DNA of 34,989 nt from the IMG/VR virus record IMGVR_UViG_3300009151_000206, positions 1 to 34,989 of that record; one strand, written 5' to 3'. Made by a program: the position numbers and the translations under genes. Below the pieces are notes generated by a model, which was not told the DNA's origin, made no database searches, and saw nothing but the letters and a program-made list of their open reading frames with translations. The stretch is from a virus. Shown piece by piece: positions 3,521 through 13,881 of this stretch (its first letter is position 1; each line of letters begins with the position of its first letter).

Positions 3521-4258
3521 ATGTCAGGTTCAATAACAGATTTTGCATCCAGTTTTAAAACGGACATAGCTCGACCAAGTCGATTTGATGTTTTAATTCC
3601 TGTTCCGCTCACACTTTATCCATTTAGAAACACATCCAGAAATTTAACTTTCAGGTGTGAAACTGCTCAATTACCAAGCAGAACATTGGCCACGGCTGAA
3701 CAAAGGTTTGGTGCCAATCCAACAGAAAAGTTTCCATATCACTCACAATACAATGAGGCCGAATTAACTTTTATCGTGTCGGATGATATGTCTGAAAAAT
3801 TATTCTTTGATTTTTGGTTAGAATATATCAATCCATCATACAAATTCAATTTTAGATATAAAAATGATTATGCCACATCTATTACTATCAATCAGTATGA
3901 TGTAACAAATTCAAAATCATATTCTATCAACTTGATTGATGCTTATCCTATTTCAGTTAATCAATTAGATTTAGATTGGTCATCAACTGAACACCACAAA
4001 TTAGCCGTATCATTTGCTTATACATACTGGCAGAACAATTCAATACAGGCTCTTGGTACGAGTTTGGTACAATCTGTATTGTCCGATATTACTGATAGTT
4101 TTAATGGATTGGGACCAGATGGATTCTCCACAAATATACCAATGGATAATCCTTTGATTGCTACAGAAACAATAAATGCCTTAAATCGTGAAGAAGTTGA
4201 TTCTATACAAATGGAAAGAAGTTTAAATTATGATGAATATGGCGAAGAAAGACTGTAA
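3521..4258 (+). CDS. 54: Tail-tube-fold baseplate protein, gp54-like
   Basis: 245 aa. The N-terminal 180 residues look like the T4 tube fold: RPSRFDVLIP, LTFRCETAQLPSRTL (the strand and loop seen in tube proteins), ELTFIVSDDMSEKLFFDFW, then DAYPISVNQLDLDW and LAVSFAYTYW near the end of the fold. That is the shape of gp19, gp48 and gp54. With a gp48 candidate already present, tail-tube initiator gp54 is the best fit. A C-terminal tail of about 65 acidic/Asn-rich residues lies outside the fold. Main alternative: the major tube protein gp19. Confidence 0.6.
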   Translation: MSGSITDFASSFKTDIARPSRFDVLIPVPLTLYPFRNTSRNLTFRCETAQLPSRTLATAEQRFGANPTEKFPYHSQYNEAELTFIVSDDMSEKLFFDFWLEYINPSYKFNFRYKNDYATSITINQYDVTNSKSYSINLIDAYPISVNQLDLDWSSTEHHKLAVSFAYTYWQNNSIQALGTSLVQSVLSDITDSFNGLGPDGFSTNIPMDNPLIATETINALNREEVDSIQMERSLNYDEYGEERL

Positions 4259-4282: not shown

Positions 4283-5008
4283 ATGGCTTTACCAAAAATT
4301 GATGCGCCAGTATATGAACTGGAATTACCGTTATCGAAAAAACAAATAAGATTTAGACCGTTTTTGGTCAAAGAACAACGTAATCTGATGATGGCTATGG
4401 AGTCTGATGATAAAGACACCATTGAAAAGAACATTCGACAAGTATTACATAATTGTATCTTAACTGAAAATGTTGATGTTGACAAGTTACCTATCTTAGA
4501 TGTTGAGTACCTATTCTTACAACTACGAGCTCGTTCTGTTGGTGAGGTGGTAGAAAACAAATACCGTTGTGAAAACTTGGTTGAAGATAAAACATGTGGC
4601 CATTTGATGGAATCCAAATTGAATATATTGGATATCAAAGTAGAGATGCCAGAAAACCAAACCGATATAATTGTTTTGAGTCCCAAGTTAAGCATCAAAA
4701 TGAATTATCCAGAGTTTTCTATTCTGTCTAATTCAACAGGATTATCATCAGCCACCGACTTGGCCTTTGAGATGATTATTAACTCTATAGAATACATTTT
4801 TGATGGTGAACAATACTATTATGCAAAAGAATCTTCTAAGGAAGAATTGACTGAGTTTGTTGAGTCATTGAACCAACAACAATTTGTTAAGATAGAGAAT
4901 TTCTTTAATAACCTACCAAAACTCAACAAGACAATTGAGTTAGACTGTGGTAAATGTGGTTTCCATCATAAGTTAGAAGTGGAGGGTCTAGACAGTTTTT
5001 TCGGCTAA
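4283..5008 (+). CDS. 26: Baseplate hub assembly protein gp26 (T4_baseplate family)
   Basis: 241 aa from the ATG at 4283, preceded by GGAG at 5 nt; a GTG two codons upstream is less likely. ELPLSKKQIRFRPFLVKEQR at the N-terminus is the hallmark of the T4 gp26 family, which assists hub assembly without entering the virion. Two Cys pairs, KYRCEN...KTCGH and ELDCGKCGFHH, look like a zinc-ribbon insert. The last codons AGT TTT TTC GGC TAA form a slippery site (see the frameshift signal). The position just upstream of tape-measure-like genes is where tail chaperones sit in many long-tailed phages. Confidence 0.87.
   Translation: MALPKIDAPVYELELPLSKKQIRFRPFLVKEQRNLMMAMESDDKDTIEKNIRQVLHNCILTENVDVDKLPILDVEYLFLQLRARSVGEVVENKYRCENLVEDKTCGHLMESKLNILDIKVEMPENQTDIIVLSPKLSIKMNYPEFSILSNSTGLSSATDLAFEMIINSIEYIFDGEQYYYAKESSKEELTEFVESLNQQQFVKIENFFNNLPKLNKTIELDCGKCGFHHKLEVEGLDSFFG
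4981..5002 (+). promoter_or_regulatory. Probable programmed -1 ribosomal frameshift signal
   Basis: A canonical X-XXY-YYZ heptamer, T TTT TTC, occupies 4996-5002 in the gp26 reading frame, two codons before its stop. A Shine-Dalgarno-like GGAGGG lies at 4981-4986, 9 nt upstream; this internal-SD arrangement is known to stimulate -1 frameshifting in bacterial dnaX. The -1 frame is open from here to 5193 and has no ATG before 5059. No strong downstream hairpin is obvious. Confidence 0.65.
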
Positions 5009-5193
5009 CATTTCGTCATGATAATTTGAGGAATCACTATCAAACTAATTTTGCTTTGATGCAACATCACAAATACAGTTTGACAGAACTTGACAATATG
5101 ATTCCTTGGGAGAGAGACATCTATGTGTCTATGCTTATACAATATATTGAACAAGAAAACGAAAAAATAAAGCAAAGACAAGCAAGTAGATGA
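5002..5193 (+). CDS. Frameshift extension of gp26 (tail/hub assembly chaperone domain, possibly gp51-like)
   Basis: In the -1 frame relative to gp26 there is a coding-looking stretch of 63 codons ending at TGA 5191-5193. It reads through HYQTNFALMQHHKYSLTELD and MIPWERDIYVSMLIQYIEQE, a compact helical domain. The first ATG (5059) would remove the leading residues, including NHYQTNFAL, and has no SD, so a fusion of about 303 aa with gp26 is the better model. The stop overlaps the ATG of the next gene (ATGA). Independent initiation at TTG 5026 or ATG 5059 cannot be excluded. T4 gp51 is much longer, so that name is tentative. Confidence 0.6.
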   Translation, partial: RLTFRHDNLRNHYQTNFALMQHHKYSLTELDNMIPWERDIYVSMLIQYIEQENEKIKQRQASR

Positions 5194-6737
5194 CAGAGAA
5201 CCTACAAAACACAGCTGAACGATTTAGAAGTCGGATGGATCCTAGAATGATTGCATCCGACTTTACTAAAGACTCTCGTAATGCTACTCAGGAGATGGTT
5301 CAAACAAAAACTAAACCTGCTTCGGTTAAGCCTGTTGCACCTAAAAAACCCAAAGTAAACAAAGTGGGTAATGTTGAAACAGCATTCTTCACAAATCAAT
5401 CTTCAGGTCAACAAAATAGTTTACGCAAAAAAGACTCTATTTCAGATGTGGCTGGTAAACTCTTTAACTTCATGAAGTATGCTGAAGATGAAAGAAAAAT
5501 TCATTTTGAGTTATACAGAAATTTTGAACAAGAGCATCGTGATGAAGATAAAAAACGACACAATGAATTGATTGAAGCTTTAAAGAAACAAAGAGAAAAA
5601 AAACCAAAGCTTGAAGAGAAAAAGAAAGAAGAAGAAAAGAAACCAGAAGAAAAGAAAAAAGAAGAGCCTGCTAAAAAAGAACCTGGTAAAGAGCCAGCTA
5701 AAGAGCCAGTCAAAGAACCCGTTAAAGAGCCAGCTAAAACTCCACAGAAAACTGCTGAACCGGTTAAACCTGCAACTGAAGCAAAACCACCAGTAACAGC
5801 AAAACCCGTCGAACCTGTACCAACGCCTACTGTTACAGTACCTAAACCTTCTATACCATCAGGTGTATCAAAAGCTGTTAAGATAACTACAGGTGCAATT
5901 GCTGTTACTGGCGCATTAGCTGGCAAAGAAGCTTTGGCCGAAAACATTTCAAAATATGAAAGTAAAGCTGCTGGTGGTTATAATGCATATAACAAAGGAA
6001 CTGTTAATGACAAAATTATTGGTGCAGATAAACCAATAGATTTTAGTAAAATGAGTATTTCTCAATATTTAAAACGAGCAGCAAAAACAAAAGGATTTCC
6101 GCAAGGCAATCCAGATATGAAACCAGGTGGTCCCGATACTTTGTTTGCAGTAGGTAGATACCAAATCATTCCTTCAACAATGTTAAGTTTGGTAAAAAAA
6201 TTAACATTGGATCCTGATAAAACCTTTTTGGATCCAGACACTCAAGATTCATTATTTTCTAATGGTTTAGTTGGTGTAGTTCGCAAAAAAGTGGACGAAT
6301 ATATCAAAGGTTTAAGTGATGACAAAAATGCAGCCATTCTAGAACTAGCAATGGAATTTGCTTCGGTTGGTGTGCCTTATGACATGAAAAAAGGTGAAAA
6401 GAATTTAAAAAAAGGGGAATCTTATTATTCTGGGGTAGGTGGTAATAAAGCAGAAAATTCACCAGAAGAAGTTGGTAGAGCTCTTGATGCTGATAGAATG
6501 AAAAAATTAGGCACAACAAAACCTGCTTTGTCAGAAAATGTATCAAAATATGAAAGTGGTGAAAAAGTAGCTTCAGAATCCATAAAAAACCAAAGCCTCA
6601 AAGAACAAGGCACATCAGGCACTACAGTTATTATGGATAATACACAAACCAATGTTGCCATAAATGGTAATAAAGGTACTCCTCCTGTGTTCTCTTCTCC
6701 TCGTAGGCCTGATTTACCAATACAACAACAGGGATAA
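5190..6737 (+). CDS. Tape-measure/hub-associated protein with muramidase-like domain
   Basis: 515 aa. Order: N-terminal region; module at about 60-135 (SLRKKDSISDVAGKLFNFMK then a charged coiled coil) that is also present in the next protein; a long Lys/Glu/Pro linker (about 135-225); a short hydrophobic stretch (TTGAIAVTGALAGKEAL); then a lysozyme/transglycosylase-like domain. The latter has a candidate catalytic Glu257 in ISKYES, a GGYNAYN loop and GRYQIIPSTM (GRYQ at 322-325), as in lambda-type muramidases. A second KYES copy occurs near residue 452 without the rest of the domain. It probably sits in the tail lumen and opens peptidoglycan at injection. Confidence 0.65.
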   Translation: MTENLQNTAERFRSRMDPRMIASDFTKDSRNATQEMVQTKTKPASVKPVAPKKPKVNKVGNVETAFFTNQSSGQQNSLRKKDSISDVAGKLFNFMKYAEDERKIHFELYRNFEQEHRDEDKKRHNELIEALKKQREKKPKLEEKKKEEEKKPEEKKKEEPAKKEPGKEPAKEPVKEPVKEPAKTPQKTAEPVKPATEAKPPVTAKPVEPVPTPTVTVPKPSIPSGVSKAVKITTGAIAVTGALAGKEALAENISKYESKAAGGYNAYNKGTVNDKIIGADKPIDFSKMSISQYLKRAAKTKGFPQGNPDMKPGGPDTLFAVGRYQIIPSTMLSLVKKLTLDPDKTFLDPDTQDSLFSNGLVGVVRKKVDEYIKGLSDDKNAAILELAMEFASVGVPYDMKKGEKNLKKGESYYSGVGGNKAENSPEEVGRALDADRMKKLGTTKPALSENVSKYESGEKVASESIKNQSLKEQGTSGTTVIMDNTQTNVAINGNKGTPPVFSSPRRPDLPIQQQG

Positions 6738-6740
6738 AAA

Positions 6741-8450
6741 ATGGCAATGTCATATCAAGAAGCCCGTAGAATTAAAAATACGGGACTAAAAGACCTAATA
6801 GCACAAAACATCGTGTCTGGCCAAGGTGTCGGTTCAGCTATTGGTTCTTCTATATCACAATCATTTAGAGCAAAGATGAAAGGCATCAAAGAAAGATTTG
6901 ATCCTTTAAACATTGCTAAGAAATTAACTGGTAATCTTGGTGCTGCAATTCTTGGTCGTATGACAGGTAGAAGTCAAAAAGATATTAGTTATTTTGCTGG
7001 TGGTAGAAGAGGCAATTCTTCTGCTGGTATCACACAAGATACTGATATGGAAAATATGGGTCGTGCATTATACACGAATGTATCTGAAGGCCAAAGGCAG
7101 AGAATGAGAAAGGGTGATTCAGTTACCAATGTATTGGCTAAACTTTATAATTTGATGAAGAAAGGTTATGAAGCGGAAGAAAAAAGAAGAGAACGCACCA
7201 TCAAAGATAAAATCAATGAAGAAGATGAAAAAATATTAAGACATAAAGAATTGTTAGAAGCAATTACTGGTATGAAATACACTGGTAAAGCATCTAATCC
7301 TGCCAAAAAAGAAGAAGGTGGAATTTTTGATTTTTTAAAGAGTATGATTGATAAGTTATTGGAACCATTTAAATGGTTGACTGAGTTAAACTGGTTGAAA
7401 GGCTTTAATTCTTTAGAATCTTTAGCTCTGAGGTTATTAACTCCACTTGGCGCAGGGTTATTGGGTCCTGCTATCTTAGCTGCCGTTGCAGCTGCAGTTG
7501 CAGTTGCATTAGCGGCTTATCTATCTGGAAAAGCAAAAGAGTTTATCAAACAAAATGTTCCGAATATGTCTGCTGTTGGACCAGAAGAAGCTGCAAACGC
7601 TTTGGCGGGTAATGATAGAGGTCTGATTGAAAAATTGGGTGGTCGTGAGAAATTAGAAGAGATTGTTAAAAATGGTAAAGCAGGAGCTCAAGAACTTTTA
7701 AAAGATCCGGAAAAAAATAAACAAGCTATTATTGATGCTGGTGGTTTAGATAAACTGAAAAAGATTGCTGATGGTCCTGATGTTGCAATGCCTTTGGTAA
7801 CCAATACAGAATTGCCTCATTTACCAAAAGGAAAAGAAAGACCTGAGGCTGGTGATGCATTACACCGAAATGTAACACAAAAAGATATATCTTCCGGAAG
7901 TTTAGCTTCCAAAAAATTGCTATCCGACCAAGTTAAATGGGATAATCAGTATGGTGCAGATTACAATGCTGATGGTTCACCAAAAGTAAAACAAACAGCA
8001 AAGCCATTACCTTCTGGAGTCGAAGCTTCAACAGCAGAAGCGGGACAAGGTTCAGCAACAGCAGCAAGAATGGATCCAAGAAGAACTGATTTCGTAACGG
8101 CTGATGCTGGTGTTACGACAGAAGGTGGTGCCTATGTTGGTGGTATGCATGGTGTTAAAAAACAAAGAAGGCCAATAGATGAAGCAAATGAGTCAACACA
8201 ACTAACAGCATCAATGGCACCACCAATGCCAAATCCAATTGGTGAGCAAGTTCAAAAGTCCATATCGCAAAATAATAATTTGTTGATACAAGAACCTGCA
8301 CCAAAACTAATAACAATAGACAATTCAAAGAGTGTGAAAATGTCTGGTGGTGGCCAAGGTAGTGGCATCATTAAAGACGGCACAGTAGATGTTCGTATTG
8401 ATGATCCTACATTACAGAAACTACAAAAACAAAACTATCGGCCAATATAA
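6741..8450 (+). CDS. Tape-measure-like tail protein (gp29-position)
   Basis: 569 aa. N-terminal basic helical region; module at about 115-175 (MRKGDSVTNVLAKLYNLMKK then charged coiled coil) homologous to one in the preceding protein; amphipathic segment FKWLTELNWLKGF; a strongly hydrophobic stretch LLGPAILAAVAAAVAVALAA (about residues 240-260), typical of tape-measure proteins that insert in the host membrane; a Ser/Thr/Gly-rich C-terminus. T4 gp29 is 590 aa, close to this length, and the gene follows the gp26 chaperone unit. Function is inferred from context and composition rather than a recognisable motif. Confidence 0.55.
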   Translation: MAMSYQEARRIKNTGLKDLIAQNIVSGQGVGSAIGSSISQSFRAKMKGIKERFDPLNIAKKLTGNLGAAILGRMTGRSQKDISYFAGGRRGNSSAGITQDTDMENMGRALYTNVSEGQRQRMRKGDSVTNVLAKLYNLMKKGYEAEEKRRERTIKDKINEEDEKILRHKELLEAITGMKYTGKASNPAKKEEGGIFDFLKSMIDKLLEPFKWLTELNWLKGFNSLESLALRLLTPLGAGLLGPAILAAVAAAVAVALAAYLSGKAKEFIKQNVPNMSAVGPEEAANALAGNDRGLIEKLGGREKLEEIVKNGKAGAQELLKDPEKNKQAIIDAGGLDKLKKIADGPDVAMPLVTNTELPHLPKGKERPEAGDALHRNVTQKDISSGSLASKKLLSDQVKWDNQYGADYNADGSPKVKQTAKPLPSGVEASTAEAGQGSATAARMDPRRTDFVTADAGVTTEGGAYVGGMHGVKKQRRPIDEANESTQLTASMAPPMPNPIGEQVQKSISQNNNLLIQEPAPKLITIDNSKSVKMSGGGQGSGIIKDGTVDVRIDDPTLQKLQKQNYRPI

Positions 8451-13491: not shown

Positions 13492-13531
13492 AGATTTCTC
13501 CTTGTGTGTGAGTGTGTGTTTATTAAAATGA

Positions 13532-13580
13532 TAGGTTATTCTGTTACGAGGAAACCTACCGAAACCCTAAGCAGCGTTTA
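13532..13580 (-). repeat. Leader hairpin element, copy 2
   Basis: Inverted repeat TAGGTT/AACCTA (13532-13537, 13553-13558) around the same 15-nt loop as copy 1 (ATTCTGTTACGAGGA on plus), then GAAACCCTAAGCAGCGTTTA. A further small hairpin AGCAGC/GCTGCT follows at 13570-13587. It lies 41 nt upstream of the 13491 start codon. Confidence 0.8.
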
Positions 13581-13581
13581 G

Positions 13582-13788
13582 GCTGCTAATGCGAACTTTT
13601 CATCGTTTGCGTTTAGTTTAATTTACTTTTTACATCTCTCTGTGATGAGTTGTCCATGCATCTACTTGTTACCCAATCGATCCTGTGTATGGCCCATCAA
13701 TTATCTTCTATTATCTGGAAAAAATAATTGGTGGACCATTCGGGCACTGCCCCCGAGTCTTGAGTGCTTTTTGATTTACTTCATACAA
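13582..13788 (-). other. Non-coding stretch with long hairpin; candidate structured RNA
   Basis: No gene is visible on either strand. Arms 13691-13704 and 13724-13737 pair over 14 positions (12 Watson-Crick, one wobble, one mismatch) around a 19-nt loop. A second hairpin TCGGG/CCCGA lies at 13740-13756. With the leader hairpin below it, this could be a long structured 5' leader or a small RNA. Confidence 0.45.
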
Positions 13789-13881
13789 CTATAACCGATC
13801 ATTGTAATATGCCCATATCCATAATCCACTAACTATAACGATAGCAATTATGGATAAGAATAATACAATATCAGATATCAT
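13789..13881 (-). CDS. Tiny single-pass membrane protein
   Basis: 30 aa, essentially one transmembrane helix (IVLFLSIIAIVIVSGLWIWA) with a short charged end. Its ATG overlaps the stop of the upstream tiny gene (ATGA), indicating coupling. No family recognised. Confidence 0.5.
   Translation of the reverse strand: MISDIVLFLSIIAIVIVSGLWIWAYYNDRL

Follow-up and report, generated by a model that had tools for sequence, protein, structure and literature searches.

The 3′ end of gene 26 in a T4-like phage raises the question of whether this tail gene is read as one protein or, by a programmed −1 frameshift, as two. The locus lies in a window of 34,989 nucleotides (the whole stretch of viral DNA that was analysed, positions 1 to 34,989 of the IMG/VR record IMGVR_UViG_3300009151_000206), and its parts are collected in Table 1. 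The sequence-only reading had pointed to an in-frame T TTT TTC near the gp26 stop with GGAGGG 9 nt upstream, and both are present as described. It had also proposed that the −1 frame is open for 63 codons without a usable start, with a stop overlapping the next ATG and a fusion of 303 aa; the sequence and the start energies given below bear this out. The gene begins with the ATG at 4283 and ends GTG GAG GGT CTA GAC AGT TTT TTC GGC TAA, where the heptamer stands in the phase that a −1 slip requires. From CGG at 5002-5004 the −1 frame runs to TGA at 5191-5193, which overlaps the ATG of the next gene at 5190 (ATGA), and the predicted fusion carries the junction peptide LDSFFRLTFRHD.

Table 1. Features of the gene 26 locus, with one segment from related loci (positions in the window unless a locus is named)
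Feature	Positions	Strand	Basis
Tail tube protein gene, directly upstream of gp26	3521..4258	+	phrog_45 6.5e-34, PF06841 3.3e-07
gp26 short form, 241 aa, T4 gp26 / tail assembly chaperone N-domain	4283..5008	+	PF12322 1.7e-62, phrog_150 8.6e-66
Predicted frameshift fusion (long form), 303 aa = 240 aa gp26 + 63 aa	4283..5193	+	T4 gp51 profile-profile alignment 5.8e-23
Internal Shine-Dalgarno-like GGAGGG	4981..4986	+	9 nt 5′ of slippery heptamer
Slippery heptamer T_TTT_TTC	4996..5002	+	sequence phase and conservation among relatives
−1 frame extension, 63 codons + TGA	5002..5193	+	phrog_634 4.7e-29; pN/pS 0.12
gp26 0-frame stop codon TAA	5006..5008	+	read from sequence
Next gene, 515 aa, candidate tape-measure/tail-lysozyme protein	5190..6737	+	position; weak SLT match 0.033; unknown-function PHROGs
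Second downstream gene, 569 aa, possible tape measure	6741..8450	+	phrog_9766 'tail length tape measure', 0.04 only
Ackermannviridae 29-nt identical segment	L088 3233-3261, also L116-L130		around gp26 stop

We analysed the conservation of the heptamer and of the frame that follows it. T_TTT_TTC was kept in all 80 relatives from IMG/VR. In a wider sample, which added to these 80 another 153 loci taken from named phages and from scans based on cyanophages (231 analysable in all), T6(C/T) was found in phase at 229 of 231 loci and in 28 of the 29 clusters formed at 70% identity. The 0-frame stop of Pelagibacter phage Mosig comes 7 codons later, and there too the heptamer is aligned with the homologous part of the −1 frame. 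NNT TTT TTC stands at every one of the 49 distinct 3′ ends from close relatives, where codon usage would predict about 0.13 per locus, and this despite synonymous sites that are near saturation (pS ~0.70). Purifying selection on the extension is strong, more so than on gp26 itself: its pN/pS is 0.12, whereas gp26 has 0.24 and the remaining two frames of the extension DNA give 1.46 and 1.59. Taken together, the retention of the heptamer at such diverged loci and the constraint on the extension make chance conservation untenable. On this sequence evidence the frameshift site in gp26 is real, and ribosomes very probably shift at it onto the extension.

What the extension adds can be seen from profile comparisons. 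It matches phrog_634, 'baseplate hub assembly catalyst', and also the C-terminus of phrog_150 (9e-07), so that the profiles of the T4 gp26/gp51 family (PF12322, phrog_150) are matched by both the N-domain and the C-terminal extension. T4 gp51 has a full-length match to phrog_150 (1e-87) and a match to PF12322 (7.7e-55), whereas T4 gp26 matches only the N-part. When aligned as profiles, the gp51 family extends across the junction, over residues 12-287 of the fusion, while the alignment of T4 gp26 to the fusion ends at the junction (9.6e-23). In genome scans, moreover, the gp26 domain was present in a single gene of the frameshift phages, whereas T4 and phiAS4 each have two such genes. Judged by these profile matches, the extension is what T4 carries as the C-terminal domain of its gp51. 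In T4 the long form, a gp26-like domain with the extension, is gp51 and the short form is gp26, the two being encoded by separate genes. The extension had been read as a second chaperone domain; it is indeed coding, and its identity is to be corrected to this domain of gp51, itself the long form of gp26. The likeness of a small ORF to the gp51 C-terminus is already noted in the record of KVP40. NCBIfam gave no meaningful match for gp26 or the extension, and a profile search of PDB sequences with gp26 gave none. The structure model of the long form (pLDDT 84.6) had no match among solved structures at E <= 0.001 in Foldseek, and a second fold comparison returned a best VIA Z of 4.8, to unrelated proteins, so that these comparisons give no structural confirmation of a tail-chaperone fold.

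Alternatively, the −1 frame could be a small gene in its own right (gp51, about 43-55 aa), with initiation at an internal ATG or TTG or by termination-reinitiation at the gp26 stop. It is so annotated in S-RSM4, Sf-CH8, Mosig and KVP40, and in KVP40, D527, K475, K448 and YB07 an ATG overlaps or touches the gp26 stop, so that separate initiation could contribute in members of this kind (TAATG in KVP40). However, the candidate starts lack a Shine-Dalgarno sequence. In the window the first ATG of the frame is at 5059, past conserved residues, and TTG codons stand at 5026 and 5056; the duplex energies at these three positions are 0.6 to 2.0 kcal/mol, compared with −5.9 for the gp26 ATG. Among the 49 distinct relatives, no locus has a Shine-Dalgarno sequence of −5 kcal/mol or better for a start within the first 32 extension codons, whereas 98% of gp26 starts do. 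The first ATG is codon 20 (5059 in the window) in many loci, and in 13 of 53 distinct loci it comes only at codon 33, once most of the conserved segment has been passed. In Desulfovibrio phage 7757, ATG, GTG and TTG are all absent throughout the −1 frame. Nor would a separate gene account for the conserved residues upstream of the annotated ATG, for the invariant heptamer, or for the fusion of both parts in T4 gp51, and we consider it unlikely. Public records of cyanophages and pelagiphages (for example L083 3265-3399 and L090 2058-2192) list gp51 as a gene of its own, about 44 aa long, and its start is very probably mis-annotated inside the conserved −1 segment.

We compared the GGAGGG element with what the same codons would give by chance. 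In the 49 distinct relatives its duplex with the anti-Shine-Dalgarno sequence has a mean energy of −9.0 kcal/mol, as against −5.1 for synonymous recodings. The internal Shine-Dalgarno sequence thus appears, from these sequence statistics, to be selected in this lineage, since its strength exceeds what synonymous recoding would produce by chance. The sequence-only reading had looked to alignments of related loci for conservation of all its elements; the heptamer and the absence of a start are conserved, and the Shine-Dalgarno sequence reaches −7 or better at 92% of the loci, as against 0.6% for the remaining windows of gp26, and is not universal, being missing in S-RSM4 (ATT TCT GGT). A fold of the downstream RNA that might act as a stimulator was not significant (z = −0.52). 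The apparently selected element 9 nt upstream also bears on transcriptional slippage, in which addition of a U within the T6 run would yield the same fusion. Every heptamer member does have a T6 run, and four have T7; yet the run is six T ending in C in 225 of 229 loci and occupies a single codon phase, whereas slippage would favour longer, phase-free runs and would not need the Shine-Dalgarno sequence, which leaves this origin of the fusion very improbable. That the heptamer is mere codon choice for a Phe-Phe pair, invariant in the aligned proteins, and the −1 frame a decayed remnant is refuted by pN/pS, with selection in that frame stronger than in gp26, and by codon statistics, as none of the 51 other Phe-Phe pairs in the same close-relative genes reads T TTT TTC.

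We are therefore left with a −1 frameshift on T_TTT_TTC, and gene 26 is, with high probability as judged from sequence, a G/GT-type tail assembly chaperone gene that encodes a fusion in this way. We infer the ribosomal shift itself, the ratio of short to long form and the roles of the two forms as follows. Most ribosomes would terminate at 5006 and release the short form. A fraction would pause over the heptamer, aided by the internal Shine-Dalgarno sequence, and two Phe tRNAs would slip back by one base, after which the −1 frame would be read to give the long form with the domain that ends T4 gp51. By analogy with lambda, the tape measure may be coated by many copies of the short form, the rarer long form may recruit tail tube or hub subunits, and both may be absent from the virion. 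In T4 and its close relatives each of these two proteins has its own gene, 26 for the short form and 51 for the long one.

Two groups lack the T6 heptamer, the Ackermannviridae and two Vibrio phages (K475/K448). In the Ackermannviridae the −1 frame is open, unannotated and homologous to the gp51 C-terminus. The 29 nt around the gp26 stop, ATTTTCATTTAATTTTTGAAATTGATTTA, are identical in nine of nine distinct 3′ ends, from gp26 proteins that are ~71% identical. It is possible that this segment (R ATT TTC) is a non-canonical recoding site, and we take it to resemble the T7 gene 10 site. The T7 site is mentioned alongside T4-like frameshift sites in PMC12846349. The two Vibrio phages have N CTT TTY and TAATG. 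A heptamer-less relative with a good Shine-Dalgarno sequence and ATG for the downstream frame, which would have spoken for separate proteins, was not found among close relatives; the nearest case is this Vibrio pair. Scans with the Desulfovibrio and Vibrio K475 gp26 as queries found no relatives. Tentatively, T4-like chaperone genes may use at least three recoding designs, namely T6 with a selected internal Shine-Dalgarno sequence (this lineage), T6 without one, and a T7-gene-10-like site (Ackermannviridae), although we consider this somewhat doubtful. If true, the short:long ratio would be tuned differently between lineages.

In their 2022 work, Vladimirov, Gautam and Davidson are said to report conserved frameshifting in several T4-like groups and the use of genes 26 and 51 in T4. 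By its title and by two papers that cite it, that work (Virology 2022;566:9-15, pmid 34826709) identified the T4-like tail assembly chaperones TAC-N/TAC-NC (gp26/gp51), which are the same gene family with the same two forms as here. According to the two citing papers (PMC10885494, PMC12846349), some T4-like phages have one short gene and one fused long gene, and poly-T stretches are −1 frameshift signals in TAC-N genes. The claim that nothing of this kind had been described for gp26 was therefore wrong, and the proposed link between T4 hub chaperones and the G/GT strategy, which the heptamer and the start-less coding −1 frame support, had already been published. Since the two-gene solution and the poly-T signals were known, a frameshifted T4-like tail chaperone is in itself not new; the window locus is a new metagenomic member, from a lineage with a strong internal Shine-Dalgarno sequence. 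Our analysis adds the quantified internal Shine-Dalgarno sequence in this lineage, a start-less example and the two groups without the T6 heptamer. The window locus also offers a clean, testable example of such a chaperone. In many cyanophage and other records gp51 figures as a very small gene apart from gp26, its start probably wrong, or is left unannotated.

We compared the locus with three known systems. Lambda slips on the heptamer GGGAAAG, unlike T_TTT_TTC here. The lambda gpG/gpGT pair is otherwise similar, with a short chaperone and a rarer −1 fusion, a slip near the 3′ end and a gene near the tail tube gene (PMC5009743); lambda V precedes G/T in the position that the tail tube gene, a clear match, holds before gp26. 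The phage here, in contrast to lambda, has a contractile, T4-like tail, and the likeness rests on gene design, not on sequence similarity. In bacterial dnaX an internal Shine-Dalgarno sequence ~10 nt upstream of the heptamer stimulates the −1 shift. However, dnaX uses A AAA AAG with a stem-loop, which has no significant counterpart in the window, and its frameshift product is the shorter one. T4 gp26 matches the short form of the window and T4 gp51 matches the fusion over its full length; unlike in the window, 26 and 51 are two divergently transcribed genes, and the end of gp26 is without a frameshift site. The identity of gp26 and gp51 explains why T4 was named an exception to G-T frameshifting (Atkins et al. 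2016 review, PMC5009743), and what gp51, essential and of unknown function in a 2010 review (PMC3004832), is.

The two genes downstream had been taken as tape-measure-like. This is weakly supported, the one PHROG tape-measure match (E = 0.04) being to the second gene only; in the HTVC008M record a putative tape measure is annotated 3′ of gp26/gp51. The product of the first has a long linker rich in K, E and P, and may include a segment akin to lytic transglycosylases (PF01464, E 0.033); tape-measure or hub proteins that bear lysozyme domains are similar in this. Elsewhere in the window, at 13530-13864 on the minus strand, the phage encodes a permuted tmRNA of the two-piece alphaproteobacterial type. 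It was not detected by ARAGORN and was found with the Rfam models tmRNA_permuted (102 bits) and alpha_tmRNA (67.6 bits); its tag reads ANDEKFALAA*.
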